Source: Terana coerulea
Lineage: Eukaryota > Basidiomycota > Agaricomycetes > Polyporales > Phanerochaetaceae
Direction: 5' to 3'
Assembly: GCA_024811115.1 (NCBI GenBank)
Contig: JAKOGH010000144.1
Coordinates: forward strand, 1 to 64,000
DNA: 64,000 nucleotides
The position numbers and the translations under genes are program-made. The notes under the pieces are model-generated. The model was not told the origin of the DNA and did no database searches. It saw nothing but the letters and a program-made list of their open reading frames with translations. Numbering within the stretch: position 1 is the first letter of the stretch; every line of letters starts with the position of its first letter. This document shows positions 14,158 through 64,000 of this stretch, piece by piece.

Positions 14158-14564
14158 CCGTGCAGATGCTTGCTGTGATTTAGTAACGACATTTATCAAA
14201 TATCTATCATATACTATTCTCTTCCGTCAGCCATACAGTGAATCTTGCTAATCTTACCGAGGCACCTAGTATGCATCGGACATGTATGTCATGCTTTCAG
14301 ACGCCTGCGGCACTCCTAACCTTAGGTCCTCACGCCGACGTGTTCGGTGGGTGCCGTAACCTTTGTGGCACCCACGTGGCAGAGTCGCCGACCACGCCAG
14401 TGCGTGCTGCGATCCGCCGGGCTGGTCGTTCCTTGCCACTTACTTCCAAGCAAGTCGTGAGTCTTACCACCCTCGCAGTTGCTCTTCCAACATTGACGTG
14501 CTTTAGGTACGGATGGTTCCTCCTGGGTACGTAATGTCCTCCGATTTTTGTCAAGACCTTGCGA
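14158..14564. other. Intergenic, CSC1-like to F-box gene
   Basis: Terminator and promoter space of two same-strand genes. There is an inverted pair GTGGGTGCC / GGCACCCAC near 14346-14384. Nothing coding recognised. Confidence 0.4.
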
Positions 14565-26000: not shown

Positions 26001-27246
26001 TCGCTCTGGCGTACAGCGTACTCTCTCCCATTATAAATGGACTCGCAACTCTCTCGTTTATTCTATTCTTCTTGTCGTGGAAGTTTCGTGCGTGCTTTGC
26101 CCTGATTCACTGTTGCTTATCTCACTGGAATGTGCTTGTTCAGTGCTTACGTGGGTTTTCGACCAGCCTGACGACGCAGAGACAGGTGGAAAATATGTAC
26201 GTGGTGCTTTGTCTCAGGTAGCCCGTGCTAATCGTGTTCTTCAGTTCCCAGTGGCAATCAATTTCCTGTGTACGTATTAGTTGTATCTACTGCATGTGAT
26301 GATGCTGAAAGCCTTGCTAGTTGTTGGCATGTACATCGAGCAGTTCTGTCTCGCTGTGCTTTTCTTCCTCAAGATATCGGAAGGAGTCGGTTTTTTGGTT
26401 GAAGGCGTCCTAATGCTCTGTCTCATAGCCTTCACCTGGGCTGCTCAAATGCTATTGCAACGTAGTTTCGACTGTAAGAGCTATTGCGAGCCTCAATGCT
26501 GAAAATGCTAACGACCTGTGTTCAGCCATTACTGATTATCTGCCCATGTCGCTGGCAACCACACAGCTACAGCAACAGCAGGAGCAGCACACGAAGACAC
26601 ACGTGTCGGGGCATGCTACAGGCGCAGACGGCGAAGAGGCTATGGACTTGTTTAGCCGAGATCGTATGTCTTCTTCGTTTTGTGAACCGCCACGTTGTTT
26701 TACAAGAATCCTACAGGTATGAAATCGCTGGTCCGAAGGCACGTTCACGTTCCCGTCCAGAAGCTGGCAAAGGAGGTGCAGAAGAATGTGTCGAAGACGG
26801 CGGAAATAGACATAGTCAGACAGCAGTCGCTCGACAGCACTCATAGCTCCCAGTCAAAATCTGACCGTAGTGACTTCGGGCGGCCCATACACAATCGGTG
26901 CGGTCCGTCAGACTTGGCAAGCAACTCCGGTAACTTCAGTCAGCCGCGAGACTTTTGGAACACTCAGGCGATTCCAGCTCCGCTGAGAGGAGAAATGCGC
27001 GACAACCAAGACGAGGGAGACCAAGATTTTGATGCACACGGCTTCGATCATCCATCGACGTATACCGAGCAACCTTGGATATGGATACCGAAGGACCACC
27101 TCGGCCTGAGTAGGATGTTCGTCGATCAACTAAAAGCAGCTGGTGTAGAGGCCAGCGACGAAGGCGCAGTCATGGACAACAAGGGAGACGTGGAGGTGAA
27201 TAGGTCTCCGCCAGACGAAGACTGGTCCGGAGGACATGATGCGTAG
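23077..27246 (+). CDS. CSC1/OSCA-type (DUF221) osmosensitive cation channel homologue, paralogue 2
   Basis: ATG 23077 (MSTVTADKAQDNDSQTF) to TAG 27246. Collinear with paralogue 1, with the same exon borders in nearly every case: YEPRTYLPPP, LEKNGMDAYMFLRFLRLL, WGNIPNEATIRYVAH, ARTVLIINVPLEMCDEH, LGSAFIQCNLQMGAH, YETRFRYVTSWIGSIG, WIRDAPAPLPGIIQGILPP, WVFDQPDDAETGGKY, VGMYIEQFCLAVLFFLK and the C-terminal FDHPSTYTEQPWIW. It lacks the long K/E/A-rich insertion of paralogue 1 and has a different S/T-rich cytosolic linker. Its regulation and interactions may therefore differ while the channel core is conserved. No frameshift seen. It differs from paralogue 1 by many substitutions, so the duplication is not recent. 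Confidence 0.85.
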
Positions 27247-43794: not shown

Positions 43795-45610
43795 TTAGAT
43801 ACTTAGCTCGTCCACAAATCTAGGGTATGTGTACCATCTAGGCTCGACTGCGTGCATGTATGGCGTGTGTACGCCATCATCGTCTTCAGCTGCTGTGCCT
43901 AATTCCGGCGACTGAACAAGCTCATCCACGACTTCAGCGAGACGTGCCCTATCCCTAGGCGCAAGCGGACGGTGACAAAGACGGCGCACTGGAACGCCGG
44001 CCGCTCTGCGTGCTTTGAGGACGTCGTACAGCGCCGCAGGCCAATGGCACCGCTGGCAATCGGCACGCGCAGAGAGGGCTGGAACGCCGGGAGGCAGGAT
44101 GCCGACTGGGTGGTCCTCGACATGGTCGTGCGGGGCCTGGGAGTTCTCCACCTTGAGCGTGTGCAGATTGGGGAGGACCGGTTGCGCGCCATTCGGAGCC
44201 TGGAGCAAGGCGGCCATGTCCACGCCGGAGCAGTGGACGAGGAAAAGCCGCTCGACGGCGTCGAGCCGCGCCGCGACGTAGAACTCCTCCCGCGGGAAGT
44301 TTACGACGTTGGTGGGGGACCACGGCGGACAGAGCTTCACGCGCCGCAGACTGGGGACGAGCAGGTGGTCGGTGAAGAGCCGGTAGAGGGCTACGTTCGA
44401 GGGAATTTCCACGGTAAAGTAGGGCTCTTGCGCCGAAGAGCGAGGATCGTCTGTTGCAGTACCCGCCCATCCGCTGAACCCGATGGTTTGTGACCAATTG
44501 ATGCTCGTGATTGCGAGCCCGTGCAGCGCGCCAGCGGGCTCATGGAACTTGGCTATGATCTTCTTCAGGATGACAGAGCCGGCTGCGCAGAGAGCAGGGG
44601 GATTAATGAGGTGCTGCATCGCAGGGGCGTGCTGGCTGCGAATCAGTTCAATTGTGGCAGAGTGCGGGAACTCTACATGGTCCAGAATGACAGAGCGGGC
44701 GAAAAAGTCGCCCGATAGGCGTATAGAGCGCAAGTTTGGGAGCGATATCTTGTCGAATTGCAGGGGAAAGGTAGGGTGCCAGTGAAAACGTTCAAGCAGG
44801 CACAAAGTGAGACTTTCCAGCTGCGGCAGACCCTGCAACATGCACAGCAGCTCTTGCGTGAGCAGTCGCTGGGGGATCTTATCCCAGGACAGGATATTCA
44901 GGTGGCGCAACGATGCGCGGCTGGCGAAGGAGGACCATATCTCGTCGTTCGGTGCGATGCTCAAGGAGCAGAGATTGGGGGCGGCAAGCGTCGACAGCAG
45001 CATGGAAATGAAGCAGCAGCACCAGCGAGAGGCAGTACGTATCTGGCGTACCCAGGGAAGGCGATACTAGTATCTTCGTAAACGCGGAGATGCGGGGTGT
45101 ACGCCAAGCCGCCCGAGAGGCCGTCTCCCACCCGCTGCATCAGCTCCGGGGATACGTGGCATGCGCTGTTGAACTGGAGGCGCTCTATGCGATGGGCATG
45201 CTGGAATATGAGGGCGAGCAGGTTTGGAGGCGCCCGTGGGTTCCGGTCGTCGATTGCGCTCAGGTCGAGCAAGCAGTCCTTGGACCGCTGGATGGCGGCC
45301 GCTATATACTCCTGAGGATGGCTCATCTCGATGTGTGACCACAGGGGCCCACAGCTCAACGCTACCTCCCGCCACACGTGGCATACGTGGCTGATGCTGA
45401 CCCGCGTTTCCAGGCCGCGACGGAAGCTCCAGCAGTCGTAGAGAACTGCTTTGTTCAGAAGAAAAATATCTCGGACAGAATCTCCGTCGGAAGACGAGAA
45501 ATCGGTCGCAAGGAGTTCAATCGCCTTGAAATGTCGAGCAGAGCCAGTCGGTGCTCCTGGCATCGACCCTCCAGCTCCTTGATCTCATCTGTAAGAGAAT
45601 CGCTGCGTAG
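43795..45610 (-). CDS. F-box protein with LRR-like C-terminal region, paralogue 2 (two apparent frameshifts)
   Basis: Stop TAA at 43795. Upstream, the exon beginning near 45597 reads DEIKELEGRCQEHRLALLDI, RRLNSLRPISRLPTEILSEI, then VSISHVCHVWREVALSCGPL, IQRSKDCLLDLSAI, LAAPNLCSLSIAPNDEIW, LPNLRSIRLSGDFFARSVIL, SFSGWA-like and ADCQRCHWPAAL. It is the paralogue of the F-box gene at 14.6-16.4 kb, sharing the coiled coil, F-box and the DEI exon border. The frame breaks twice: in the A run at 45462-45466 (+ strand), directly after the F-box core SEIF, and near 45001-45005 between AAASFP and MLLSTLAAPN. Both are single-base events. The first coding exon upstream of 45600 is not located. Likely an SCF substrate receptor, by family. 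Confidence 0.7.
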
Positions 45611-45949: not shown

Positions 45950-46907
45950 TCAAAAGTATCCTGCATAAGCCGGCGGAAGTGTACTAGCACGCGTTGAGAC
46001 TCCGTCAGACACAGTCTCAGCACCGTGGCTGGGAGGTCGCCCCGTGCCTTCGCCATCCAATCGCACCCCGCCATCCTCCTCCCGCCTCCTTCGTGCGATT
46101 CTGGTGGATCTGCGCCCGGGAAGTGGCGTCGCGGGGTATGACGGAGGCTGGGACAGCCATTCCGCAGACGCATAAGCGACTTCCTGGGAGTCATCGGTAG
46201 TTGAGATTGGCACGCTGCCTTCCTGTAACTGCGCCGCGTGCTTCTCAGAAGGTGGTTCATCTGGCGGGCTAGTTGGCACCATCTCTTTCCGACCGAGTTC
46301 CTGGCTAGGACGACTTCGCAGCCGCGGTGGTGGCCCAATCAACACTTGCCTGGCTGGTGCAGGTTGTATCGCCTCGTATGGTACATCTTCACGGGGAATA
46401 GGCAGAGGTTGCGGGGGAGTTGCGGGGATACCTATTGAGTTCGATGTTGAAGGACTCGAGAAGGATCTCGAGTAGTCGTATGAGCGGGCTTGCGTAATGT
46501 GGCCGGTCGCACGTAGATTGCTTCCTCCAGGGCCAAAGCTGGTCTGAGGCACACCGGACAGTGGAGACCTCACGTATGCCGTAGGTAGTGCCATTATACC
46601 GATATCTGGGGTGCTGCCGGGTGGAGGGATGGGTTTCAGGCGGAAATGAGTGGGCCTCTCCATTTTCGACTTTCCTGCCTCTACATGGTTAAGCCGGTCA
46701 GCATCGTGTCATGGATTCTGTTGAGGTTAAGTCCCATAATGGCGAACCTGAAGCATCCGTGCCATGTTTCCGTCGCTTTCTTCGCACTACAACCCAAAGA
46801 ACAGTGACAAGTCCTATTGCAACGGCGGCCAAGGGAACCAGAAGCGGGATGAGAGGAGAACCCGACTGGGCGATCTTTTCAGTACAAACACAGCGAAGAG
46901 TGGACAA
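45950..46907 (-). CDS. Single-pass membrane protein with C-terminal PPxY, array member A
   Basis: TM exon at 46.7-46.9 kb: SGSPLIPLLVPLAAVAIGLV continuing to VLWVVV, then the stop-transfer RRKRRKHG. After one intron the cytosolic tail (46663-45950) is P/S-rich, with PTHFRLKPIPPPG, PPPRLRSRPSQELGRKE, the basic-acidic box RRRREEDGGVRLDGEGTG and the end STRASTLPPAYAGYF, TAG at 45950. PPAY is a WW-domain ligand (class I PPxY). The extracellular part upstream of 46907 is not clearly readable. Only a short DLASASVG-like stretch near 47050 fits, so the ectodomain may be short or lost. It is the closest relative of member F in TM and tail (PLIPLLVP against PIIPLFVP, PSQEL against PSQEH). Confidence 0.65.
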
Positions 46908-47040
46908 AGAGCGAGCTTACGGGGTCGGATACAAAACTCTAGCAATGTGTACGACCTCTCTCTTTGGAAATTTGTTTGGCCTACTGAAAGTATAAGCAAG
47001 GAGCGTATGGTGGCGAATTGTCATCGAGTCAACCTACCAT

Positions 47041-47863
47041 TTCCGACAGAGGCGGAGGCTAAGTCAATGGCATGCGACTAGAAACCTCTAAGATTGTTCT
47101 TGAGGGGTATGTACGTGATTTCCACTCTCCTCTAGCCCAGCGCTGCGACAGGAACGTGAGGGCGAGTGGCCAAGCCCGAACGATGTGTGTTCGCTGTGGG
47201 AGCGTTGTGCATAGGGGGTAACTATGGTGGCGCCTCTGACAGCAAGATAAGACGCCATCTTGTGTTATATTACCGAAACGTGTAAACAGTTAACAGAGTA
47301 ACACTGGCTGTTGACAACAAAGAGTGTTAGTTAGTGGCGATGCTACGATGATTCCAACTGATACTTACTTCTCAACCTCCCAGTAGTAATGGGTGGAGAT
47401 GGGGCGCACGGCACCTGTACAGCCTATATTCTGATGCCTACTGAGGGGTATGTATCGTAGCCTCCCCTGCGATAGTGTTACGGTGTCCACGGCGTCCGAG
47501 TCAGAAGGAAGGAGGGTTGTTTGGCCGTGTTAGGATTCAAAGCTCGACACTCCTATATTGGGCCAATTATTACGTAATGGATCTCTTTCCTCGCAGGCGC
47601 CCCGCACTGCCCTGGTACCCGAGGCCTCCAACCATCTTCCATCGCATTCCCTGTGTATGCTCGAATATCGAATACGCGGATTGCGTGGAAGTCAATGTTT
47701 CATTGGTTGAGAATTTGTGTACAGCCAAGTGTCTATAGAGGCTCTCCCTCGGAACGCTCGTCACGCATACTAGTAGTAAGTCAAATTTCACCGAATCATT
47801 TGTCCGTATCGTATAAGTTAATAACTAGGTAACGATAGGTTTCTGCAGCGTCCCAATCCATCG
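47041..47863. other. Spacer A-B with duplicated upstream box
   Basis: No gene recognised. Bases 47514-47602 resemble 56951-57034 (GTTTGG-TGTGTTAG-TTC-AAAGCT ... TTACGTAATG ... GCGCC) and, in part, 53330-53355. This suggests a shared 5' flank of the array genes. Confidence 0.5.
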
Positions 47864-48904
47864 TTAATTGTATCGCGCATATCGCGGTGGGAGAGTACTG
47901 CCGCTCCCTGAAGGTGTATGCGTTTGAATGGTGCTCGTACTAGCTGTCAGGGCGGCGCTGTGTATGCGACTCGGCCGCGGCGGCAGGCCCACACTATACA
48001 AGCCCTCATATTCATCACTTGATCTCCCCTCGTAGGCATTATTGGCTACCTGCTGCGATCCATTCACGGGCTGTGGGTCTGTGAGGAGATCTAGGAGGGC
48101 CTGCTGGCGGCGCCGCTGCGTCTCTGCAAAGGCATGCGCGGCATTATGACCTGGCGCTTTTTCGGAGATCTTGCGCCGGGGCGATGAATGGTTGTTTGGA
48201 GTAGAGGATGGCTCTACGTCTAATACGCTGCCGCTGAAGCGGCTGGTAAGACTAGCATTACTCATGTTGAACTGTTCGTCCGCTTTTTCCGGGTTGTCGA
48301 CCAAGGAACTCCGACTAGGAGTCTGGCCGATTGCTTGCTCGGTGAGTTCTGTATTTTTGACTTTGAATAATTAATGCGTAAATCTGGCTGCAGGTTCACT
48401 TTTCAAAAGGCACTTGCCTGGTAATCCCACGGGCGGGCGAGGGCGAGACCCTCGGTGGTACCGGAGTATCGCGAACAGTAACGTAAGAGCCGCCAAGAAT
48501 CCAACAATCGACATTACCACCACAAGAGGTACGCTAAAACCATTTTGTGGTGCCGGCTGGGGCGAAGGAGATAGATACACGGTGACTGTTGGCGGTGATA
48601 CGCTCGTCGCGGTGGTCGTGACTGTTGGGATGAAGTCGTGCGCCAATGGCGGCGCACTCGTCGACTGGGTAAACAAAACCAAGGTCAGCTATGGTGATGA
48701 CCACAAGCAATTATGTTATGTGACGTAAACTTACGACTGCAACCCAGGTACTATCTTCGTACAGAAGACCGGACTACGCGTTCTTGTTAGCGGCGGTATG
48801 CTGAGATCTTAGTTGAGACATACCGCAGTGGCCAGCTCGCTCAATACTTCTGGGTCCACAGTGCTGGCGCTCGTCGAGCTAGGAGGAACGAGCGATATGT
48901 TCAT
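47864..48904 (-). CDS. Single-pass membrane protein with C-terminal PPxY, array member B
   Basis: The upstream exon begins MNISLVPPSSTSASTVDPEV near 48904. An S/T/P-rich stalk (TVTTTATSVSPPTVTVYLSP) precedes the TM NGFSVPLVVVMSIVGFLAAL/TLLFAIL and the stop-transfer RYHRGSRPRP (48.7-48.4 kb). The tail exon (below 48350) reads TEQAIGQTPSRSSLVDNPEK, SPRRKISEKAPGHNAAH, and ends SGSGSTLPPRYARYN with its stop at 47864. PPRY fits the WW-ligand consensus. It lacks the DGGVRL box of other members. No clear signal peptide was found upstream, so the first exon may be missing or the protein may be an N-terminally shortened copy. Confidence 0.6.
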
Positions 48905-49451
48905 GAGGATAATAATGATGCAGTAGTAAGGACAGTAATGCCAATGTGTTTGGCGACGGAGCGCTCAGCTAGTGGACTTTAGGTCGAGTGGGCGCGCAAT
49001 GTGGTGCCACCCAGCATACACAACACAGATAAGTACTTCAATGTCCTACAGCCACATAGATCTGATCGTTGCTACAAAGTCATAAGCCCGAATGTTGGGA
49101 TCCAGAGAAGAACTAGGATTCTGTCGGAGGAATATCAGAGCAGAGGGATCTGGTTCCGACCATTAGTGGCGGATCTCGCTCTCAATATACAGTGAAATGC
49201 TCCTACCTGATAGCAGCAACTACCGCGCAGAATCTGGTACGCACTTCACAGCATCTCTGGTATAATCACTGCAACATCTCTAGATTGGATCACGCTATAC
49301 AATCGACTTTCGAACATTCATGGTCTAACTCAGGCTTGCAATGAGAATAAGCTAAGATAAAGAAGAACTATATTGTACGCATTGTCTATATCCGTATAAA
49401 TAAATAATCCGAGTAATGACAGAATATAGGGCTACCAAGTAAAGACTGGAT
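48905..49451. other. Spacer B-C, no gene recognised
   Basis: No conserved coding or RNA signal seen. Confidence 0.35.
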
Positions 49452-50674
49452 CTACTCATAATCATCGTATCGCGGTGGCAGGGTACTGGCACTGATTGAA
49501 TGTGCGTCACTGGTTGCAGTCTCCGTTGTCCGAGCCGGGCTGACGTCTCTCTCCGGACCCGTGCCATTCAGTTGCGCACCGCCGTCGACCGCCCGTCTCC
49601 TGCTCCTCCACGCCCTCGAACGCTGGCGCCTCCAATATCTCGGCGGTTCCTCGTTGAGGAAGTTTGGCAGAGTCGGTAGAGCTCTGATATCCGTGGTGAC
49701 AGTGGGTGGAACTGCAGCAACCGCCGAGTCCAACGTTGTGTGCACGAGGGGTGCTGATATGTCAATGACATCGTCGTCTTCGCTGATCACGGAGCTCCCA
49801 GCCATGCTTGTGGCTGACAGCCTGTCTTCGGCATGCGGCGAATATGTACCGGCCGCGGATCCTCGAGCCCCCGGTAAGGGAGCCCGCGAGGGAGACATGG
49901 CTTTGCAGGGCTTCAAAGGGTGCAGTCTGCGTAGTGCGAACGCTTTGGGCTTAGGAATATGATACAAGTCAGCTCTATCCTGCGAGAAAGGGGACAACAG
50001 TAGCACACGCCAAACGCACAAGATGACGATGAGGTCTGCGACGATGGTGCCGAAGAGGAGCGGCGTCTTGTGCGTCTGCAAATAATGAGAAGGAGGATGA
50101 CCAGGAGGAGGATAGCGATGATGGGCAGCCCGATGATGAGTGACAGCTTGAAGCTTTGGTCGGCATGCGCAGGGCTCGGTACCGCCGGCGCTGCTGATTT
50201 AGCTACCACAGCTGTTGACAAACTGGAGTCTGTCCCCGCATGGACGGCGGAGGTCGCTACCGATGCCTAGACGACAAGGTGAGTAGCTGTTCTTTTGATC
50301 TCTGCCTATCTCTTTGAGTGACATTGGGTGCTCACTTGTGAGGTCGACAAGCCGCTCTCAACAACTAGACTCGTCTTCGCGAATGCGTTTGCATCAGTGA
50401 AATTTGAACGTAGGTATTTGGCTAATCGCATGTGGTACATACCAATGCTGCCGTATTTCCCGCCGTGCTGCTCGGGAAAATAATGCTGGGCGGAGCCATA
50501 GGTTCCTTGCAAGCCCTGCACTCCTGGGCTTGCGGAAGCCGCTGTACGAAGAAGCGCCAGCTCTGAAAGAAGAGAAGGAATGGGAGCATGGCATGTGCAA
50601 GAGGATAGGGATATACGTACAGAGCTGACGGTGTCCATGTACAGCCCCTTGATATCTGCATCATACCCATTCAA
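49452..50674 (-). CDS. Single-pass membrane protein with C-terminal PPxY, array member C
   Basis: Extracellular exons upstream of 50.3 kb are uncertain. The last one gives NAFAKTSLVVESGLSTS, followed after an intron by ASVATSAVHAGTDSSLSTAV and PAVPSPAHADQSF. The TM is LSLIIGLPIIAILLLVILLL/IIC with stop-transfer RRTRRRSSS (~50.1 kb). The tail exon (49.97-49.45 kb) reads DRADLYHIPKPKAFALRRLH, SVISEDDDVIDISAPLVHTT, RYWRRQRSRAWRSRRRAVDG, GAQLNGTGPERD, and ends SISASTLPPRYDDYE with its stop at 49452. It therefore has both the basic D-G-G box and the terminal PPRY. Residues before the TM are the least certain part. Confidence 0.6.
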
Positions 50675-51147
50675 TACACCGTGCGAGCCCTTTAGATGGG
50701 AAGTCTAGATCAGAATTATCTAGTGCGGGAAAGATGATTGGACGTACAAGGCATCAAGATGTGCGTTTGGTGTCTTGAGAGGATACTGAGCAGAAGCTGC
50801 GACAATACAGACCGCGCTCTTCAGCATGCACCAAACGACTTCAATGAGCTCAAGCAAATCGCTCATTCACGGTCATGCAGGCTCGTTGTGTGACTCACGT
50901 GATGGTATGAGGCACTGGCAGCTTTGTTTGGTATTGCTAGAATCAGAGGGTTTTGATTGCCTATTACGATCTCCCGAACGCCGCGAAGCTGTGTTTCCGA
51001 ACTCATTCTAACTGACAGCAGATGGACAGTTGGAAGATAAGGTTCGATTGAGCAAGGCCAAAATGATCGCAAGCATGATATGGAAAGATGTGTAAGCTAC
51101 TACCATATAGCTGCTGGCCGCGGGAAACAGACTGACTCGTACTGTTC
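50675..51147. other. Spacer C-D, no gene recognised
   Basis: No conserved coding or RNA signal seen. Confidence 0.35.
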
Positions 51148-52822
51148 TCAAACAGTGTAAGGCGGAGGTAGCGGGAGCCTCCGGGTTCGGTGGCAACAAG
51201 CCAGTCCCCGCCAACCGTACCCCCGCGTCCATGGCTTGCCTCCTCCGCGCTCGCCGTATGTATTCTTCAGTAAAATCGCTTTCGTACATGCCCCTCCGTA
51301 GCGCTTCTTGCCTTCGGTTCTCTGCATGAGCCTCCACATCTGGACCTCGTGGGTTTACCAACGACGAAGCTGGTACAGCCGGAGGGTATTCCGGAGGCAA
51401 GGTGCTCGTAACCGACGCGCGACTTGGGAAACAAATGGCCACACGACGCGCCCTGGCAATAGGATGGGTATCTCGAAGAGCGTCTCGCAATGTGGTGGTA
51501 CGTTCTTCCTTTTCTTGGGGTATTGCCTCTACAATATAAGCAAGCAGATAATAGTTAGGCTCACTCATATTCTGAAAAGGCGAAGTTATGCCATACTCAC
51601 GAGCAGCGCGGCGTCGTCGGTGACAGCACCAGAGGATGACTAAGACAGAGCTGAAAAGAGCCACTGCCAAGACGGATATGGTCACCAAAAGCGAGACATT
51701 CTTCCTCGAGGATCGGTCGCCGCTTGCTGCTGAAATGCTTGAGGAAGACGGATAAGCCGATATCTTGGTAAATATTAGCAAAAAATGGCTTTCTGGAGAG
51801 TATTTGACTGACCGTATCTGGCGACTGAGTAGCCCTGAGTGAAGCTCCTTGACCGATGTACGAAGTTGGAAATGAGATGATAACCGAGGCTTCTATCGGC
51901 TTCATTGCAAGTGTTATCAGGGTCGGTATAGAGAGAAATCAACCCTACCTCGAACGAAGGAGACAGTACCACGCTTGAGGTTGCAAAAGAGGCCGGAGAA
52001 TGAATATCGATCGTACTCTTATGTCCGTCATGTGTGAGTCATCTACTTGCGCATAAGCTCAGAAGGAGTGACGTACAGAGGCAGAGAAGGCCGAGGAGGA
52101 AGATGGCTGGTCGAAGGCCTATGTTTGGGCTCGTCACAAGATCTGGTAGCAGCAAAGCGACAAGCAGTGGCACACACCGCGTTAGATTGAAAGATAAGCC
52201 TTGATAACGATGTAAGGGTAGCACTAGTGCTTGACTTCTCGGCACTTAGAATAGTTGAAGTGGAAGCGGGTGCTTGCAGCGTCGATGTAAGCATTGATGA
52301 GGCCACGATAGCGCTGGATTGTGACTGCCCCGGAGATGTAGATGAAACAATGCCAGAAATCGACACAACGCCACTGCCTAAAGCTTCGCTAGCTAGTGGG
52401 TGTTGTGGAACATCCGCAGTGGAAGCTTGCCGTGACGCAAGCGGCATGGATGCAGCATCTGTAAGCAAGGAGCCAGTTGGCGTTGGCGATAAGTCCATGC
52501 GTATATTCTGCCAGTTGGATTCAGAAAATCCGAGCAGGTTTAAAGCCACGGAAGGATGTGGGGTAACCGTACTACCCAAGAAGCAATGAGAAACCGGGTG
52601 TAGTCGTAACGTGGCATAGCGACCTACGTGAAGCGTGTAACTGTGGGAGCCCAAGCTAACAAATTTTTGGAGCACGAATTGTCCTGAGTTTAAAAGAGCG
52701 TGGTATAAAAGAGTGGGGGGAGATAATTTCCGGTGTATAGGGGCCGAAGGAGGAACGAGAAACGGAATTGACGATGACGACGCACGGCGTTCCATTATAT
52801 AGGCCACGATAAGTACCGCCAT
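51148..52822 (-). CDS. Single-pass membrane protein with two PPxY sites, array member D (frameshift at end)
   Basis: A long open N-terminal exon starts at ATG 52822 (MAVLIVAYIMERR), includes FVSLGSHSYTLHVGRYATLR and a Ser/Thr-rich stalk (52.5-52.2 kb). Exon joins between 52.2 and 51.9 kb are unresolved, and another hydrophobic stretch occurs there in a different frame (LRPAIFLLGLLCLCTSLLLS). The next clear part is SEASVIISFPTSYIGQG, then the TM NVSLLVTISVLAVALFSSVL/VILWCC with CHRRRRAAREYG (~51.7 kb), an internal STLPPEYPPAV, the box RRARRRQAMDAGVRLAGTG and NPEAPATS. A one-base shift then gives LPPPYTV and TGA at 51148-51150. So it carries two PPxY motifs. A separate, tail-less gene in 52.0-53.2 kb is a possible alternative for the N-terminal part. 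Confidence 0.55.
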
Positions 52823-53656
52823 TCATCTGACCGTCGCAAGGAGAACAGGGTGCCTACTTTCACAGCATCAGAATCAGTTCCGTGAAATACTAACGAAACC
52901 GTACCTTGGTATACCCAGTCCGTCTGACTGTGGATATCACGAGCATCATATATCAACGATAAAGAAGATGCATCGCATATAACCCTGTAGACAAATACAA
53001 GCTATCCGCACGTTTCTTCCACCGGCAAGGCCCTAACGTACAACGGCATTTCAGTATCTGGAGGTTCGGTGTCGAACTCGACTTGAATCCGAACGGATGC
53101 TGGTTCAAGTTTCAAGCAACAGTCGGATGATGATGTGGCCAGAATTGTGCGGGAATGCAGGGGCCTGCTGAAAGTGTGAGGATGAGTAAGACCATGTAGA
53201 GCCAGTTGTATCCAAATAGAGCTTTTAAGACACGAGATCAACACTCAGTTGAGCATCCGCGGCAGGATGCTGGAGCAACCTGCTAAAGACGACTCGGACG
53301 GCGGCTTGAAGCGCCGGGCGTTTCGGTGATGTTTGGTCATGTTAGGTTCCGATGCTTCTCGCTTCCATTTGGGGGTAGGCCGGTCTAGCCCTCAGCAGCT
53401 CTGGCTTGCGCTTGAGTGGCTGAACTACGTATCCTCCCAGACCCTTGACGAGCGCAGATCAGAAATAATCTTCCAGGACAAGCAGTAGGGTATTTGTCAA
53501 GCAGTAAGTAAAAGCTGGCTGCCAGTTTTGTGACCGAAAGCTGCAAGTCCGGACGCCAGAGTCTTGGCGTGAAGTCGCGTGATTTGTTCTAATACTTGGT
53601 CGGTTCACAGCTTGGACGAGATGCAGGCGGAAACGACGAATGAGATAATTTTAATA
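52823..53656. other. Spacer D-E with possible signal-peptide exon
   Basis: On the minus strand near 53200 a short hydrophobic start, MVLLILTLSAGPCIPAQFW, resembles a signal peptide. One frame over, CLKLEPASVRIQVEFDTE and PPDTEMPLYVRALPVEET read to 53002. They could be first exons of member D. 53330-53355 repeats part of the upstream box seen at 47514 and 56951. Confidence 0.4.
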
Positions 53657-54980
53657 CTATGCATAGGGAGCATACGGCGGTGGAAGCACGCTATCTTCAG
53701 AAGACCCGGCGACAGATTCCGCAGGGCTCACCGCACGGATACCACCGTCCTCGGCCAACCTTGCATCCGCATGAGTCTCTCGCCTCCACGCATGAATCGA
53801 AGGGCCCTCGGCTGTCGCACTACTTGCATAAAGGTTCTGCCGAGGCAAGAATAAAGAGTGTCTCCCCTCCGCAAGTGCGACTGGCGACGAGCTCCTGGAA
53901 GAGCCATCGTACACTGCGATATTGCTTGCGTCCACGACGAAGGGGCGAGATGGCGATGTCAAAATAGCAAGAGCTTCGTGACCTGCAGTGGAGTTGCAAA
54001 CACTTTCTTCCTTACCCGATGCAAATGACGTTGCAGAGCCAAAAATGCTGAAATGTTTGACTGTAGACTTCTCGGGCCGGAGTAGGATCTCTGCAGAAAG
54101 GCGTAGGTCAAACGGTAAGCATCGCAATTGGAGGCGAGTATTACTCTAGAGACTGACCAGAACGTAATGTCCGCGTACGGTGCCGTCTGAAGCAATAAGC
54201 GGTTATGCCAAGCAGAAAAAACCCCAGGCATACGGCAAGAGCAACGATAGCAAACCGTAATGTCTTGTCAAGTCCATGGCCGGCTGCCGCGTGGGCTTTT
54301 GCTACTGCAGAGCCAGTGGTTGCAAATTTTTCTGCCGATGCAAATATTCCTGTTAAGCTCGACGCGACACTCTGGATTGTGAGACTGTGTAAGTCGTACG
54401 TCTCCATAACGAAATAAGAGTTATACCAGGCTGACCGTTTCGGAGCTCATCGAAGAGAACGTCACCATCCCATCCAGGCCACCGCGCGACGTCGCTGTAA
54501 TTGGCAAATCCGATATGCCTGAGGTGTCTTGAACGGAAGGTAGACGTGTGGCAGGCTCTGAAGTCGCCGCACTTCTGCTGATCGGTACCGGGATGGCGGT
54601 GGAGAAGTGATCAGATGGAGTATTGCGAGGATGTGAAGTGGGCTCGGACGCAATGTCGGTTGGGGTAAAGGTTTCAGTGACGGTCGGCTCGGTTGGAGAA
54701 GAGGAGGCAGCCACTTCGCCATCATCCGAGGTCTTATAGTATGCAATTGGTTAAATTAGCAGCCGCACAAAGGTTAGCAAACTCACCGGACAGAGAACCG
54801 CAACGGTGACTATTGTGAAGTTGCGGAATGCGGTCGTGGTGCAAATGAACTGCCGTAAGGTATGCTCTGTGAGTGACTGTGAGAAGGTAAGCGAGCTCAT
54901 TGCAGGTGAAGCCTGCATTGGCATAGGCTGCCATAACCCGGTAATATATTGCAGTACGTAAGATGGTCGTCAATGCCAAC
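53657..54980 (-). CDS. Single-pass membrane protein with C-terminal PPxY, array member E
   Basis: An extracellular exon near 54.8 kb gives RQFICTTTAFRNFTIVTVAV followed by LCP at an intron. The next exon is a Thr/Ser/Pro-rich stalk (TEPTVTETFTPTDIASEPTS ... FSSMSSETVSLV). The TM exon (54.4-54.15 kb) has LDKTLRFAIVALAVCLGFFL/LGITAYC and RRHRTRTLRS. The tail exon begins EILLRPEKSTVKHFSIFGSA and ends with RRETHADARLAEDGGIRAVS, PAESVAGSSEDSVLPPPYAP and YA, its stop at 53657. The terminal segment (P-ES-SSE-S-LPPPYA-Y) is shared with members G and H, so E, G and H form a subgroup. The first exon and signal peptide upstream of 54.98 kb are not resolved. Confidence 0.65.
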
Positions 54981-55376
54981 GATGTAACTGACTGCCTTTA
55001 TCGAATTTCACAGATTGCAAGATCCAGCCCATAGCACATGAGATTGAAGATCAAAGCGAACATGATGTAAAGTTGTACCTGCGGCTAGCGAAATCAGATG
55101 TGTGCAGAACACTATCAGGAAACGGATGTACTTACCGCGCGTCCTCAGCACACTTGTTCTCCTAGCGGCACGTCATGCACTAGGACTGATCTGGGTTAGC
55201 CCAGATAACTCAAATAGCTTAACGAGGTTGGCCGACTATCGTTCAATAATCGGCACAGAGCGCTGCAATCGCGCCAAAGCAAGTTCGTTCATGTTTCACT
55301 GTGACCCAAACTGAGCCATGGCAAACACAGAGCTGTCAGCTCATTCTGAATAAATAACGCAAAACCGTGGGGGAGA

Positions 55377-56640
55377 CTAAAAGTATCCCGCGTATGACGA
55401 AGGAAGCGTCACGGCGTGGGTGAGTGGTCTGCTTGGCACAGCCTCGACGCTGCGATTTCTAGGCCTCCCCGACCCTCCCCCTGTCCAGTTGAATCCCACC
55501 GTTTCCCTCCCGCCTTCGCCGCGCGGCACTAGTGTGTCGGCGTGCGAGCTGAAGCGCAGAGGGATCTTCAGCAGGCTGAGGCGATGGGGTCTGATTGCCG
55601 AAGTTTCTAGATTTGCCCGTGCTCGGTACATGGGCGTTCAAAGTGCGGGATCTCGCCATAGACCTTTGCGCGAGCGGTCTGTCGGTTATGAACTCGTCAA
55701 GGATGTGCTCTTGACTCGGGAGCCTCCGCGGCCGCGGAGGTGATCCAATCGGCACATGTACCGGAGGGGGTATGTCAAATCTCGGACAGGTACACGCCTG
55801 TCGACTCGCGGCTGAAGGCGAGGTGCAGAAATGGGACTACCGATTGGCTCCGGAGTCGAAGAGGGTGAGCGATATGCGGGATAACGGTCGTGAGGGTGTG
55901 TGTTATGATTTCGGTGGAAATCGTGCTGTAGCCTTGAGGGGACAAACTCGCAAGAGGCACGACTGACTCTGGTGACCTCACGGCGCTCATCGGCCCCATG
56001 CCGCTGTCTGCGTTTGAAGCCGGCGTATCCGGTGCCAGTATTCTGGAGCGGAACAAATTGCTTGCCCGTGGTCGCTGTACAGTGAGTTCTACATTGTCAA
56101 GGTAATCAATATCCTGCGGCTGGGCATACTTGAGTACACGGGGATAAGAGCCAGACCTAAAGAATCCTTGTTGCGCTTCCTCCGACACCTCCGTATCACT
56201 AGCACCAGGATGATGGGCAGTAAAACTGCAAGGACAAGCAGTGGGACAAACAGCGGAATAATGGGTAAATGGATCTGGTTCACGCCAGCATACGATGTTA
56301 GTTCTTGCAGGGCATAGTATCACTCGGGACACTGGGCTCACCAGCTTCGATATAGAGCCTCTCTTATTGAGTGCGACAGCGTGAAACGCCCGGAAATGCT
56401 TCAGAGGGCGCAGATCATCAGCAAGGTATGCAGTGTTATCAGCCGGTGCAGGCTTACTGGAGCAGATGGGTATGAGCGACTGGGTAGAAGCATGCTCTTG
56501 AGACAAACAGAACAGGTAGAAGTAGGATGCAGTGGACTGCCGTATATGCTCCAGAGCGGCGAGGGGTAATGAGAGGAGTTCAAGGGTCTGCATGAGCCCA
56601 TGCGTCCACAAATACCGACTAGAAGCACAGGTTGTAGCGA
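55377..56640 (-). CDS. Single-pass membrane protein, array member F; PPxY degenerated to PSSY
   Basis: An ectodomain exon near 56.4-56.3 kb reads RGSISKLVSPVSRVILCPAR. The TM exon has NQIHLPIIPLFVPLLVLAVL/LPIILVLVI and RRCRRKRNKDSL (56.28-56.15 kb). The tail reads SGSYPRVLKYAQPQDIDYLD, then, after frame changes near 55.8 kb, PPPVHVPIGSPPRPRRLPSQ, RRHTSAARRRREGNGGIQLD, and after dropping one base at 55482, GGGSGRPRNRSVEAVPSRPL and AVTLPSSYAGYF with its stop at 55377. Tail and TM match member A most closely. The WW-ligand core PPxY is replaced by PSSY although the flanking TL and YAGYF are kept. Several single-base shifts mean it is either partly decayed or poorly sequenced. Confidence 0.55.
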
Positions 56641-56656
56641 AGGCGAAAGGCTTCAC

Positions 56657-57889
56657 ACCAGGCCCGGATGTTATCTTGTAGAATAATGCAATGGTGGTTA
56701 CAAGAGTTCTACATGAGTTTCAAGGAACTGTTTGATGATTGTTGACATCGTAACGCTCGAAGAACTAGTTAGTAGAGATATGCCAACGAGTCAACTTGTG
56801 CAACAACACACTTCTGCCGAGCGAACGGTACGCATGAGGACCGTCTTATCTCGCTCTATGAGTGCGGCTGACCATAGTGTTGCAGGTACGTAGGTTCAAG
56901 ATGATTGCTAAGTCGCATCGCAACCGTCGTGATAGTGCTTGTAAGAGAATGTTTGTTTGGTTGTGTTAGATTCCAAAGCTGATTACTGCCCTTTTCGGAT
57001 TACCGCCCGGTTACGTAATGCTCTGCTAGCGCCAGCCAATTTGCTCCTCTCCCGTCAAGACGTCCAACTTCAACATTCAAGTTCATCTCAGTCATGCCTT
57101 AAGGCCTCATCGTCGCAAATAGTACGCGGCGCGGTTGGTTGCAGCAACCAACCGTGCTGCGTACAAGGTAGTCTCTCGATCCAAGCCGCCAGCATCACTC
57201 ATTTTCGCCGCCTCCCGCACTTCTCAAAGCCGCTCTATATGTAGGCTACCGCACACTGAAAGCGAGTCCCGGTTGTTTGGCATCATCACCAATCCGTTAA
57301 TGTTCAATCACACGGCCACCAGCATGCCCATCATGATTGCTACCCATTCTTACGTCTTTGCTACGCTTGTTGAGCCCAGGCCCTATCAAGGAATGTGCTT
57401 CATCCTACATCCTTTCCTGATCGGAACGTTACTTCGCCACCGCCTGTCGTGTCAAGATTGAGGAAGCTGAATCAGTCCGCAGAGTGACTGTAGTATACAT
57501 GCAAGCGGGACTGGACAAAGGATCGGGGACAAAACCGCTGAGAACAGTGTTGAAAGGCGAGAAAGCGGGTGGGAGCAGTCTGGCTGACGTCTGAAGCTGA
57601 CGTTACTTACTTGAGCTGGTGGTTGTAGTTCTGCGTGTTACAATCCGAGCTGGAGAGCACGAGCTTCGGGTTAAAAAGCATCATGTATGACTTATACGCC
57701 CCTCGACTACCGACGGTTATCACTGCACGGCTGCTATATAATTGTATCAGATTCGCAAGTATGAGATCGTTGAATTCGATATTGGCGTACCTTCAAGTTA
57801 ATTTCACTGAGCAGGGGGCTGCACTAGTTGCAAGATCAAGTCCAAATTCATTCAGCTAACGTTCATCGCAGATTCTCAGTACGTATTCG
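56657..57889. other. Spacer F-G with duplicated upstream box
   Basis: No gene recognised. 56951-57034 is the second full copy of the box described at 47514-47602, lying about 300 bp or more upstream of member F. Confidence 0.5.
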
Positions 57890-59315
57890 CTATAGCCGAA
57901 ATAAACATACGCACCTGTAGGCGGCATACGGAGGTGGGAGTGTGCTCCCTTCCGAAGATTCAAGAGACTCAACCGGGCTCGCCTGTCTGACATTCGGAAC
58001 GTCGCTGTACAGGCGAACTCCTGCGTCAGTTTCTTGATGTCTAGATATCCTTCGCCTGCGCTCCACTAGTATGGCATTTTCTCCGCTGAGCCGGCGTTGT
58101 TGCGCCGGGCCTCTCGCCCCAGTTCCCGCCCGCAGCGCATTAGGCGTGGTCTGCTTTTCGAGACTGATGGCGAGCGGCGGGCTCAATGGAGACGGAAGTG
58201 CGTCATCCAGGGAAATTTCGAACACAGCAGCATCGCTCAAGAACTCGGACGTCGAGCTTTGACCTGCAGCTGCAGTGTGTTGGACGGATGCCAGTGAACG
58301 CCAGGACGACAATATACCATCCTCGGGCGTCGGGATGTCCGAGCTTAAGACATCAGCATCCTTTGCTTTAGCGGCGCCATCTGGTACGTAAGTTGACAGA
58401 AGTTAGCACACTCGATATTCACCGTTTGAGAGAAAGAAGTCCCTACGTAAGGTCGATAATGCAGCCTTCCCACGACGCTTCATGTAAGTCCTGCCAATAA
58501 TCAGGAGCGCAGTGCATAGAGCCGCCGCAAGCACTATAAGCGGAATGTATAGCGATTTGTTCATTCCCTGGGTCTTTGGCGCCGGAGTTCCAGTGGGCGT
58601 GTTAGTGGCAGATGTCTGAGATGTGCTCAACGGGTTGTCGTTCCCAGAAGATGTACTGGAGGGCTTAATGATCCTTTTAGCCCAATGCGACATCACAGCA
58701 AAGGAGACTTACAATGTCGCTGGAGGGCGCAGTGCTTCTTTGACTGGAGGCATTGCTTGATGACATGCTGGTCGAGGCTCCGGAGTGCTTCACATCACTG
58801 GTATTAATATTATCACCGGATGCAGCACTTGGCGCAGGAATAGCCGTGCCAGAGGTCAATATTGAAGCTGTGGAAGGGGACGCAGTAGACGTTTGTGTAG
58901 GAGCTGTGGATGAGCTAGAGATTGCAGGACTTTGCGAATCTACGCTGGGAGTCGGTAAGGAATCGGTTGGGCCCACACCCGCTTCAATGGATACACTAGC
59001 AAAAGCGCCCTATAAGGCGAGAATATGAGGTAAGCGTAAGAGATGCAGAAATCCCAGAGGTTACTCACGTCACAAATAACGGTGTTTCCATCTGTGAAGC
59101 AGGACTGAGAGGAATCGACTGAAACAAATAAGGCCGGATTGTGGCGTGGAAATCGGTGCGGGGGAAAGCCAGTCGCCATTCTGCAGCACGGCCAGTTCAG
59201 GATTTCGGATAGCCGCAAAAACGTATCTGACAGAGAGAACGTTCAATGACTGCATGATACGGGTCAGGATCATAAGTAGGGGATACTTATAGACAAAACC
59301 GTACGATGGTAACAC
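57890..59315 (-). CDS. Single-pass membrane protein with C-terminal PPxY, array member G
   Basis: Best-preserved exon chain of the array. Extracellular part: RYVFAAIRNPELAVLQNGDW, an intron, DSSQSCFTDGNTVICD, an intron, GAFASVSIEAGVGPTDSLPT and a long Ser/Thr stalk (58.97-58.72 kb), an intron, then SGNDNPLSTSQTSATNTPTG. The TM is NKSLYIPLIVLAAALCTALL/IIG with RTYMKRRGKAAL (58.56-58.46 kb). Tail: LSSDIPTPEDGILSSWRSLA, RRRRISRHQETDAGVRLYSD, SPVESLESSEGSTLPPPYAA and YR. At that point a GTGCGT donor allows a further 3' exon; otherwise the frame runs to a stop at 57890 (CVCLFRL). PPPY and the D-A-G-V-R-L box are both intact. The two Cys of the ectodomain suggest a disulphide. The signal peptide is upstream of 59.3 kb and not identified. 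Confidence 0.7.
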
Positions 59316-59949
59316 GGCCTAATTGATTTAGTGATTGACTGACATAACTGCGGCAGAGAGAAATATCAGCGATGGATCGTTCTTGCTTTGATGTTTGATG
59401 GCTTTAGACTGCTTTCGCCCGGCAGAAACATGATGTTTGGCGACAGTGCTAAAGCTCCCCCTCGAACAAACAGCATTGTAGCTCGCCGCACGAGTTCATC
59501 ATGAGAGAGGAGAAACCGGCGAGATTTAGGCAAATTTGCCGTGGAAACATGGAACACGTAGAGCTTTTTATCAAGGCGTAATCGCGAAGGGTAGAAGCCA
59601 TGTGAGTGGAAGCTGATAGTAGTGAGCATGCACTGGTTACAGAGGATTGCTTCATCTAGACAATGAAGTCAATGATCAGCAAGCTGCGTTCCGTCTGGGA
59701 TCTTTGCGCGCCTCTGTTGCAATTGACTAGTAGTCACGTTATGTAGCTTTGAAAAATTGAAGTCGTACCTGCAACGCGCTGATGTGAACTCTTTGAATCA
59801 TGCCCCAGAGTCCTACGGAAACGGGCCTCCCCTCGATATGTCCCATTCTTGCACCTTATACTTCTCCAGCCGGTCCATAGTGTTCCCTGGCATTGGTTCT
59901 CCCACCGCACAGCTAAACGCTCTCAGCTCAGCGCCCTTCCGGTTATGGT
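59316..59949. other. Spacer between member G and the APH-like pseudogene
   Basis: No conserved coding signal recognised on either strand. Confidence 0.35.
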
Positions 59950-60922
59950 GAAGCAGTGAAGGGTTGTAGGAGTGGACGTGCTTACGACAGCATTGGCCCA
60001 GCAGAGCGTCTTCCCCGCCTTCGTCTTTGAAATCTCCCGTGACTCTTGGTACCTTGACATGAGGAAACGCCGGTAGTCATCGTCGAATTTTGCCGGGGCT
60101 ACAGCTGCCAACTATGCCGGCCGGAAACCGGCCATCTACCAATCGCCGACCCCGGTAACGTTGCTGGTGTCTATGTAAAGAAGAATGTTGCGTCGACCGA
60201 GATCCCCATACGCGAAGTGAAATCTCGGCGACGTCGACTTGGCTTCGCTATCGTACAACGCACGCACAATATCGTAAATCTCCAGCGCTTTGTCGTCAGG
60301 CCTGCGCTCGACGTCGTCCTCCGCGCGCGCTGGAGGTATACCGCGGTAAGCAAGCGCCTCCATAAACTGACGTTCGGTGACGAAAAGTCCCGATGACTCG
60401 GCGGGGAGAAGGAATTCATGGTTCAGCAGTGCGATGTCGTTCAGTGGGCCTATGGCAATATCGCCGGACTCCGTGTGGCTCTCAAAGTCAAGGTTAGAGT
60501 GTATATGTGCTCCAAGTTCGGCCTCCTTCTGGCTAAAGCAAAGCGGCCACTGGTCCTTGGGATCTTACGCTCATCAAGAAGGCTTCCGCAATGAGCTGCT
60601 ATAAGATACATTATTAACGTTCTATACGCTCCAAGGAGGCGAGCCACTCACTGCGGACGGAGACCATCGTTGCCACCTCTGCCTCAGTCCCGATGGACTC
60701 CCGGACAGGAAGAATAAGCCACGTGAAGAGCCTCATGGCGCCTTGAAGGATGAAAAATAACGCCCCGCGTACTGCCCGTGGCTGAGGCTCTTCTTCTTCA
60801 CATGGTGATTTGAAATGGGATGAAATGATATTTCTCATCGCCTCGAAGTCGATGTTCAAGCTTAGCCAAAGCCTGTCGTGATGGCTGACGGGTGCGTATT
60901 CAGCGGTATTTGGTTGTGGCAC
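59950..60922 (-). pseudogene. Aminoglycoside-phosphotransferase-fold (APH family) gene, two nonsense codons
   Basis: The exon near 60.9 kb reads WLILPVRESIGTEAEVATM. The main exon carries IGPLNDIALLNHEFLLPAES, LFVTERQFMEALAYRGIPPA, DKALEIYDIVRALYD, the phosphotransferase loop FHFAYGDLGRRNILLYIDT and NVTGVGDW. Fungal APH-fold proteins have H/Y-G-D-L..NIL followed by VTGV-I-DWE.AGF.P. Here the text is GDW-stop-MAGFRPA-stop-LAAVAPAKFDDDYRRFL, with TAG where Glu and Trp would be expected (about 60133-60137 and 60107-60111). Two substitutions rather than indels point to real decay, not base-calling error. It sits on the same strand as the membrane-protein array but is unrelated to it. Confidence 0.6.
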
Positions 60923-61233
60923 CTTGTAAGATAGTAATAGAAGGCATAGACAGTAACGTCAACGACGCCAAGCTCGTTGAGATGAACGTACGCGGCAAGG
61001 CCCAGGACAGTTCTGTATTTGGTAAGCTTTGGCTTTGGATCCTAACGCGTACAAACACTGAATTTAATCTCCGATAGCAAGTAGGCGCTCGTTACCACTG
61101 CAACGCTTCTCCAATCGCCCGAGGTTTACTGTCGTTGCGCCAAGCCATCCGCAGCTCCTGTTAGAAAACAGAAAAATCGATGAGCACAGTACTATTGAAC
61201 AACTATTACAGTGCGTACATGGTTATACAGTGC
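60923..61233. other. Spacer APH-like pseudogene to member H
   Basis: No gene recognised. Confidence 0.35.
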
Positions 61234-62530
61234 TCAGTCAACCTGGTACGCAGCGTACGGCGGTGGAAGTGTGCTTCCCTCCGACGACACGACAGACTCC
61301 ACGGAATCCACACAGCTCTGAGGCCCTGGCACGGAAACTCCTTCGGCAAGCCGGACAAGGCCTATGTCCATCTCCCTCAGCCTGCGCGCGCTCCTGGTCG
61401 CTTGACCGACCCGGGAGTCATCCAGACTGTCTCGTCGGAGATCGGCTCCGACATCCTCCCAATGAGTGTAGGCATCTGCTGTGACGCGACGCGGCGCTTT
61501 TTCCGACTTCATAGGCCCCGAGGGGATGCTGAGCGCGTCCTTGGACAACGAGTCGAGGCCCGTGATGTGACTTTCGGGTCGCAGAGTAAATTCGGGCCTG
61601 GCCGACGTCACTTGCGTTTTTCTCGAAAACCAGTTGGGCATGGCATCTGCCTCTGGTATTGAATCTCCGCCTAACAAACTCGGGCCATCTAAAGAATGCC
61701 AGGAAAAGTCCAGATGCATCAGCGTAGTCTTCCACAAACTGGAATAAGTAGATTACGTACCGATTGGGGTACGCCTTGCCGATTTCCTGCGAGCTTTGGC
61801 CCTGGAATGCCACAGAAGAGCAACGATAACAGTGCACAGCACCCCGCAGACTGCGACAATCGGAATCAATACCGCCTTGCTCAGATGATGATTCTGACTC
61901 TGTACGCTTGGGGCAGGCTGACGGTCGACTGTCCCTGATGCTGGTTTACTACTAGTACTACCAGTGGGAGACTAGACGACAGTGTGAGTCACGTATTAAA
62001 ATAGCAGCGCAGTCGCCGCACCGTGGATGAAGTAGACGAGGAATTCGAGCCCCCAGCAATGCTAACACCTCGAGTAGTCACTGGTAGAAATGATACGAGA
62101 ACCGCGCTCTCTACTGTAGCGGAGAGCGTCGTATTCGCTGGGAACGGCGCTGCGTTAGACGCAGTAGTTGGCTTTGAATTTGGTGTAATGAATGTCTCGG
62201 AGGTTGGAACGTTTGACGATGGTGCTGATGGAGCGAACGTCGGTGAGGCCAAAGTTGAAGTTTGCGTGATGGGAGGAGTCACTTCCGTGGTCCCTGGAAG
62301 CCTATTGCTTTCTATACTGCCAGTGCTCCCGGAAAGCAGTGTTGTCGCCGCAACGAAGGGCGGGACAATCGCTTCTGTAATACTATTCGCCAATTCAGTC
62401 GCATTGCTCTAGAGATTCAGCGTAAGAAGAGTTCCATTAGCGGGAGTTTTCTGAAGAACTCACTACTTCAGAGCATATTTCAGCAAAATCAGGAGAAGAG
62501 CAATCAAGATCAGGAGTAGAACGGTCACCA
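61234..62530 (-). CDS. Single-pass membrane protein with C-terminal PPxY, array member H
   Basis: An upstream exon near 62.5 kb reads STPDLDCSSPDFAEICSE. The next exon starts SNATELANSITEAIVPPFVA and is a Thr/Ser/Pro stalk (TEVTPPITQTSTLASPTFAP). After an intron come KPASGTVDRQPAPSVQSQNH and the TM SKAVLIPIVAVCGVLCTVIV/ALLW with the stop-transfer HSRAKARRKSARR (61.85-61.75 kb). The tail exon begins WKTTLMHLDFSWHSLDGPSL, includes RSARRLREMDIGLVRLAEGV and ends with SCVDSVESVVSSEGSTLPPP and YAAYQVD, its stop at 61234. The final 16 residues are almost those of member G. Frame is intact from the stalk to the stop, making H the cleanest demonstration of the design. The signal peptide is not identified. 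Confidence 0.7.
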
Positions 62531-63954
62531 CTCGGCATGTGTACTAGTTGTGTTCAAGTTCGCGCGAGATCGAAGTTAAAATAAGTAAGGAGCGACTATG
62601 ACGGTAGGTTATTTGAAGTCAAAACTTGGGGATGAAGGGGAAAGGGTGTACCTCAACAACACCCGTCACAGGTGTTGCCCCGTTATAACTCGCAGTGCTC
62701 AATGGTCATCAACTTCCACGATGTGACCCGCGATGAGCATCCAGTTCTGCAGATGCTCCCTAACGTAGAAACAGCTCTGCACGTAATAGTTCAACGAGAT
62801 CACAGATAAACAGATAACTGCACGTATAATCTGATATCGCTATAAGAAGATCTGAAGACAGTCCATGTAAGGAGACTGCGGAATGTTCAAGGGAGCACGC
62901 ATACCAGTTGGATCGGGATTTGGAAGCCTGAGATGGAAGCGTGACGGCTTCATCTGTCAGAAGGATGGGATGTGGCATGTAGGTCGGTGCAGTATCATCG
63001 TGCATGGATACCAACTCTCATGAGTAGTACCTAGGGGTGAAGGGAGAGGGGTAAATCTCCCCGTAAGAGCGCCATTGCATAATCGTATACAAGCTGAGTG
63101 GCGCACGCCGTCTTCAAAAGCGCAATACTCCTCTGTGAGAGCATCCCTACAGTAACATTGCGCAACGTTAGCATTTCCCGGACATCGTCGCAAGCGGTAC
63201 TCACTTCTCGTGGCAATGTACTCAGATTCTTCGGGATGAATGCCAAGCGTGCGTTAGCATTTTGAGCCAGCGGTGCGAGCAAGAGGCCAAAGTACCAGCC
63301 AGATGGAGCCCGCATCCAATCCTGGAGCTCTGCAGAGCCCGCTGAGCGGACAACGGTGCTCGTAGCAGAGCATGAAGAACGAAATCTGGTCGCGACTCGT
63401 GGCCAAACAATGTGCAAATAGACACAATCACGTGCGCAGGCAAAGCCACGCGACGCAAGTTCGGCCGGGCGCCTCTGTTGAAGCCGAACCAAGTTCGCTT
63501 CCATCACTGTCAACGGCAGGTATTGCGTCCAAGGCGTCCTGTGCTCGCATGTGCTCCGCCAGCGGCCGCTGCGACGACAACGACGCTGAAAGCGTACCGA
63601 AAGAGTCAGAAGGACCCCGGAGGGCGCTGAAACCTTGTTACGTTGGCTCTGGCAATACACACTCTCCGAGCTTTAGCCATAACATGCATAACAGCTGGGA
63701 TTATTACCGTATACCCAGCACCGGACAGATACAACTCGGAAGTAGGCCTACGCATGAGCTTCTCGCCCAGCCACTCTACGTACACCAACGTAGTACCAAC
63801 GCTCGAAGCCTGACGCAGGCACCCAGTGCTAGCGGCACGGTCTCCGTGAGAAATGGCACTACGGCGCCAGCGTGAAGAAGTGCGTTTCGCCGGGAGGATT
63901 CAGTAAGCGCAGTACAAAGCAGGCATTCAGGCATACTCGGCTGACAGGCGCTTG
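62531..63954. other. Spacer H-I; unassigned 209-codon minus-strand frame inside
   Basis: A minus-strand open frame at 63031-63660 (including LQDWMRAPSGWYFGLLLAPL) has no family I recognise and overlaps another open frame on the plus strand. I leave it unassigned. The rest shows nothing. Confidence 0.3.
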
Positions 63955-64000
63955 CTAAACCGGGTACACGGCGTACGGCGGCGGAGGCGTGCTACCCTCT
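63955..64000 (-). CDS. C terminus of a further PPxY membrane protein, array member I (cut by window edge)
   Basis: The minus strand from the right edge reads EGSTPPPPYAVYPV followed by TAG at 63955-63957. It matches the EGSTLPPPYAAY ends of members G and H. Only the last 14 residues are in the window, so TM and ectodomain cannot be checked, but strand and motif show that the array continues to the right. Confidence 0.6.
   Translation of the reverse strand, partial: EGSTPPPPYAVYPV

Follow-up and report, generated by a model that had tools for sequence, protein, structure and literature searches.

The tandem array and its loci

The window analysed here is a stretch of 64,000 nucleotides of the basidiomycete Terana coerulea (contig JAKOGH010000144.1, positions 1 to 64,000), and its subject is a tandem array of genes on the minus strand encoding predicted single-pass membrane proteins with a C-terminal PPxY motif. 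A six-frame reading of the whole window finds P[PS]xY within 25 residues of the stop codon in 22 frames. Nine of these are the minus-strand loci between 45950 and 63999 (loci A to I) that were singled out by an earlier reading made from the DNA letters alone (the sequence-only reading). Each of the nine tails quoted there was recovered at its place, the frame of locus I being completed beyond the window at position 64347 of the array contig (C123). A transmembrane (TM) segment followed by basic residues is present upstream of the tail in all nine loci (for locus I, outside the window), as that reading had proposed. Its count of at least nine also holds, with at least one more open copy (J) and one remnant lying past the window edge. 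The nine members cannot all be read through: A, B, C, E, G and H (six of nine) are open across TM and tail, and D, F and I are out of frame between the TM side and the terminal PPxY. The loci are as follows.

Locus A, 45950..46874, minus strand: TM exon 46874-46748 and tail exon 46680-45950, ending TLPPAYAGYF; upstream exons not resolved.
Locus B, 47864..48904, minus strand: open four-exon model of 287 residues, with a Ser/Thr-rich outer part, one TM segment and the tail TLPPRYARYN.
Locus C, 49452..50266, minus strand: TM exon 50266-50020 and tail exon 49942-49452, ending TLPPRYDDYE; upstream exons uncertain.
Locus D, 51148..51724, minus strand: terminal LPPPYTV not in the frame shared by the TM segment and the DAGVRL block; probably decayed.
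Locus E, 53657..54900, minus strand: open four-exon model of 352 residues, tail VLPPPYAPYA.
Locus F, 55377..56274, minus strand: pseudogene related to A, ending TLPSSYAGYF.
Locus G, 57890..59179, minus strand: open four-exon model of 371 residues as read to the stop, TLPPPYAAY near its end.
Locus H, 61234..62538, minus strand: open four-exon model of 375 residues, tail TLPPPYAAYQVD.
Locus I, 63955..64000, minus strand: tail end TPPPPYAVYPV; TM exon at C123:64994-64433, outside the window; frame apparently broken in the tail exon.
Locus J, C123:66039-67509, past the window: open copy with six exons.
Remnant tail, C123:67804-67824, past the window.

Additional copies or pieces were found on contigs C208, C299 (two) and C260 (two), and at C123:122568. 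The four-exon models of B, E, G and H have intron phases 0, 0 and 1, and the six-exon model of J has phases 0, 0, 0, 0 and 1. The last intron of B is read as GC-AG, and a short 3′ intron perhaps follows TLPPPYAAY in G. A C260 copy contains a stretch corresponding to the first exon of G (38% over 71 residues, with a two-cysteine CFTD...C pattern), which supports the coding status of that exon. A Ser/Thr-rich open frame (52043-52822, minus strand) lies upstream of D; it has no clear TM segment and tail of its own and is perhaps a gene fragment.

Tail motif, helix-tail linkage and selection

Alignment of 12 chosen tails (A, B, C, E to J, C208, C299 and C123:122568; D, the remnant at 67.8 kb, the C260 copies and the H-like C299 copy were left out) gives the consensus end L/P-P-[PS]-x-Y-x-x-Y. 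The proline at −3 and the tyrosines at 0 and +3 occur in all 12, and the leucine at −4 and the proline at −2 in 11. All 12 carry [L/P]PxY followed at Y+3 by a hydrophobic or aromatic residue, in a tail that is placed in the cytosol by the positive-inside rule only. This arrangement recalls PPxYxxL, the extended PPxY (PY) motif of ENaC that is bound by Nedd4 ligases, as described in the available part of the source (PMC2582799). Further PPxY motifs are found internally in the TM frames of A (PPSY), C (PPRY) and D (STLPPEY). The remainder of the tail had been described as almost completely diverged, which proved too strong: a DxGxRL-like block follows the basic stretch in A, C, D, F and G, an altered version of it is seen in E, H and J, and it is not evident in B and I. 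The Asp and Gly of DxG are invariant across eight aligned tail exons.

A chance origin of these tails is ruled out by a count of stop-to-stop frames of at least 60 residues, in which a frame qualifies if P[PS]xY lies at most 8 residues before its end. Between 45900 and 64000, 7 of 78 minus-strand frames qualify (A to F and H), compared with none of 56 on the plus strand of the same region, and with 1 of 177 and 1 of 169 elsewhere in the window. First-order Markov sequences, 300 in all, give a mean of 0.22 and a maximum of 2. G, whose frame runs 8 codons beyond the last tyrosine, and I, cut by the window edge, were left out of this count. Genome-wide, the pattern (S/T)T(L/F)PPxY has 35 matches, versus 24 for the reversed pattern; seven of the 35 fall in a 22-kb stretch of the array contig, including one (51386) inside D. 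The off-contig candidates on C497 and C616 were rejected as they do not have the TM-plus-tail layout, and C673 offered an unrelated frame only.

Linkage of helix and tail was assessed in 11 loci (A to J and C208) by anchoring one codon in each of the two exons, TM and tail, and listing all stop-free GT/GC-AG introns between them, scored with our own, uncalibrated splice matrix. The top-scoring intron is in phase 1 in all 11, which makes it unlikely that TM and PPxY exons belong to separate transcripts, a finding that the sequence-only reading had named as fatal to its proposal. Since the intron phase is shared although tail identity among the paralogues is often only 25–32%, the data argue for descent from a single gene that already contained both helix and tail. 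By this shared phase and by sequence kinship the loci form one tandem family, in which B is the most distant member (best outside match, E 7.6e-4).

Comparison of G with J shows how substitution differs between the two sides of the predicted membrane. The ratio of nonsynonymous to synonymous substitution (dN/dS, ω) is 0.90 in the ectodomain (bootstrap 0.59–1.46, 126 codons) and 0.35 in TM plus tail (0.23–0.52, 217 codons; TM exon 0.36, tail 0.34), a difference with a permutation p of 0.0015; the last tail stretch has an ω of 0.21 over 39 codons. In this young pair the outer part has evolved much faster than helix and tail, as anticipated. Identity between G and J is 74% and 77% in the introns, 79% over the 150 bp upstream and 45% in the 3′ flank. 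As the Ser/Thr exon is only 39% identical, with gaps, we do not claim positive selection.

Duplication, decay and the outer part

Several members are broken. Similarity of the F tail to A is spread over three frames, the frame following the TM-tail intron of I differs from its PPxY frame, and in D the terminal motif has left the frame of the DAGVRL block; for D and I, assembly error may also account for the frame breaks. The C123:122568 copy holds a stop and has no visible TM segment, and the C260 copies contain stops or frame changes. With D, F and I out of frame, the array is better described by birth and death than as nine working genes. Local duplication is equally evident: G and J, including upstream DNA, are 72–76% identical, and DNA upstream of H recurs at 68.0–68.8 kb, upstream of the remnant, with 66% identity. 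On both C299 and C260, a G-like copy and an H-like copy are separated by about 2.8 kb and follow the same order, which suggests that an H-G pair was duplicated as a unit. These two contigs are 94–98% alike where compared and may represent alleles that the assembly has not merged. The proposal of a birth-and-death family that varies the outside and keeps one inner docking site is supported by the common intron phase, open beside broken copies, these duplications and the G/J contrast. A 74% identical DNA segment is also found near H (60684-61089) and near the dispersed C123:122568 copy (L025 2991-3409, about 124 kb on C123).

In the five full models (B, E, G, H and J), the outer parts comprise 87–193 residues with 31–41% Ser plus Thr, and the predicted cytosolic tails 157–181 residues. 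The Ser/Thr-rich ectodomain ascribed to the members is clear in B, E, G and H (31–37%) and in I (31%) and partial in C (28% over 43 residues); it could not be resolved in A, D and F. A unit of about 91 bp, consisting of a small exon and an intron, occurs three times in the outer part of J, the repeats being 77–79% alike (L013 3117-3396; C123:67117-67396). None of the five models has a Pfam match over cut-off, including matches to WSC (PF01822) and Mid2; below it lie Psg1 at 0.099 (E), Hamartin at 1.9 (G), Alpha_GJ at 2.9 (B) and TMEM154 at 0.077 (J). The TM exon of C matches TMEM154 at 1.8e-5 and Glycophorin_A, both below cut-off. WSC domains occur elsewhere in the genome (19 matches, 18 over cut-off).

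The rest of the window contains two plus-strand PHM7-type membrane protein genes (10722-14157 and 24024-27246), with PHM7_ext in both and PHM7_cyt in both, the second of these below cut-off. Two frames resembling F-box/LRR proteins (14535-16365, plus strand; 43795-45584, minus strand) are alike by eye; an F-box-like match, below cut-off, was obtained at 44964-45584 only, and 14535-15917 matched nothing.

Interpretation and related systems

A candidate WW-domain partner of the kind suggested by the sequence-only reading is present in the genome. A C2 frame is followed on C351 by a frame carrying three WW domains and then by two HECT frames, which is the Nedd4/Rsp5 order, and all are read as one predicted gene of the Rsp5/Nedd4 type. 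Additional HECT matches occur on C42, C610 and C878, with no WW match listed there.

We give about an even chance to the explanation that the array is a tandem family of single-pass proteins working like the membrane PY adaptors of the Rcr/Comm type, or itself serving as Rsp5 cargo. We favor it because the motif is far above chance, the tail residues are near-invariant, the TM and tail exons are compatible in one spliced frame through phase-1 introns, ω differs across the membrane in one pair, a ligase gene exists on C351, and Rcr and Comm offer a precedent. We infer the topology (by the positive-inside rule), the surface location, Rsp5 binding and the adaptor or cargo role. Each protein would consist of a Ser/Thr-rich outer part, one helix flanked by basic residues on its inner side, and a long tail in the cytosol that terminates in L-P-P-x-Y-x-x-Y and would dock onto the WW domains of the Rsp5/Nedd4-type ligase. 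As an adaptor, the protein would bring Rsp5 to neighbouring membrane cargo; as cargo, it would itself be ubiquitinated and sorted. Selection would keep TM and tail, and the outer part would drift or diversify.

Several points weigh against this explanation. The gene models are hand-chosen splice paths, adopted since the automatic gene finder scored the array low, fused or overlooked copies and extended one model across the disrupted frame of I. A phase-0 intron in C scores almost as well as the best one (2.56 vs 3.05), the unspliced frame is also open in D and C208, and the hand-chosen last intron, also phase 1, ranks second or third in A, B, D and E. The selection contrast comes from a single pair with a gappy ectodomain alignment. 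D (PPPYTV) has no tyrosine at +3, and the +3 residue of the array is Tyr, whereas PPxYxxL has Leu. Seven of the 10 WW matches, five of them over cut-off, are on contigs other than C351, so that other WW partners are possible. A clear signal peptide was not seen in the five models by hydropathy, although unseen first exons could hide one; the start of E is the most hydrophobic, and B, E and J have hydrophobic ATG frames upstream, of which only that of J has a usable splice donor. Finally, protein searches (1877 and 7506 candidates; 7995 sharing most words) returned no outside homologue, from a database that probably holds few fungal proteins, and the literature matches listed, 20 of 89, 15 of 76 and 10 of 777, include no title on this family, which is no proof of absence.

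A Ser/Thr-rich stalk followed by one TM segment is the layout of the Wsc/Mid2 sensors. The array proteins share it, together with the basic inner flank, and could be wall or surface stress sensors whose PPxY tail serves only Rsp5-dependent turnover. We consider this unlikely: the absence of WSC or Mid2 matches and of a clear signal peptide in the five models, with WSC domains encoded elsewhere, leaves the comparison with these sensors, drawn by the sequence-only reading, a weak one. A family mostly in decay, with little present function, would account for the broken D, F and I, the remnant at 67.8 kb, the defective C260 and C123:122568 copies and the low gene-finder scores; the constraint on TM plus tail in G/J and the open B, E, G, H and J make it quite unlikely. 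Recognition receptors for the environment or for self/non-self, whose outer parts diversify and whose inner output is shared, would fit the ectodomain ω of about 0.9 in one pair, the repeated exon-intron unit of J and the mixture of open and dead copies. An ω near 1 fits relaxed constraint equally, and no folded outer domain was found in the five models; we regard this role as very unlikely. Similarly improbable is a role of the tail other than in Rsp5-driven sorting, either as ligand of a different WW protein or in late-domain-type vesicle release. The additional WW matches in the genome would allow it, but a hydrophobic residue at Y+3 is a feature of the extended motif of Nedd4 type, where it is Leu in the available part of PMC2582799.

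If the tails of the favored adaptor-or-cargo family do bind Rsp5, local gene duplication would give one ubiquitin ligase many membrane-anchored partners, and evolution would act differently on the two sides of the membrane. The presence of open and dead paralogues within about 22 kb makes the idea easy to test. A rather doubtful possibility is that the proteins form a new class of Rsp5 adaptors, anchored in the membrane and lacking signal peptides, in which the Rcr/Comm design was rebuilt and multiplied as a head-to-tail array, the copies differing outside for the choice of cargo or ligand and sharing one ligase through PPxYxxY. Such a class would be a membrane-bound counterpart of the arrestin adaptor repertoire.

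Yeast Rcr1 and Rcr2 and fly Commissureless (Comm) are short one-TM proteins whose PY motifs bind Rsp5 or Nedd4 (PMC5578492). Like the array proteins, Rcr1 and Rcr2 of Saccharomyces are fungal membrane proteins with PY motifs (PPSY and VPEY, binding Rsp5); the available parts of the sources liken them to Comm (PMC5578492, PMC2810449) and call them possible adaptors (PMC2810449). Unlike them, the array family has no RCR (PF12273) match in its five models; none was found in the genome either, a weak negative, as control genomes were also silent. To our knowledge, neither a large Ser/Thr-rich outer part nor a tandem array is known for Rcr proteins.

Comm, PRRG and CYYR1 are likewise short one-TM proteins with PY motifs and are poorly conserved outside these motifs; Comm carries an extended PY motif, and Comm and two PRRG proteins are described, in the part of the source available, as having no signal sequences (PMC5578492). 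They differ in being animal proteins with no sequence kinship shown, and the motif of Comm is GLPSYDEAL. Ear1 and Ssh4 are yeast membrane adaptors of Rsp5 and, unlike the five array models, which have no SPRY match, contain SPRY domains (PMC2810449). Taken together, we regard Rcr1/Rcr2, Comm/PRRG and Ear1/Ssh4 as the closest working models for the array family.

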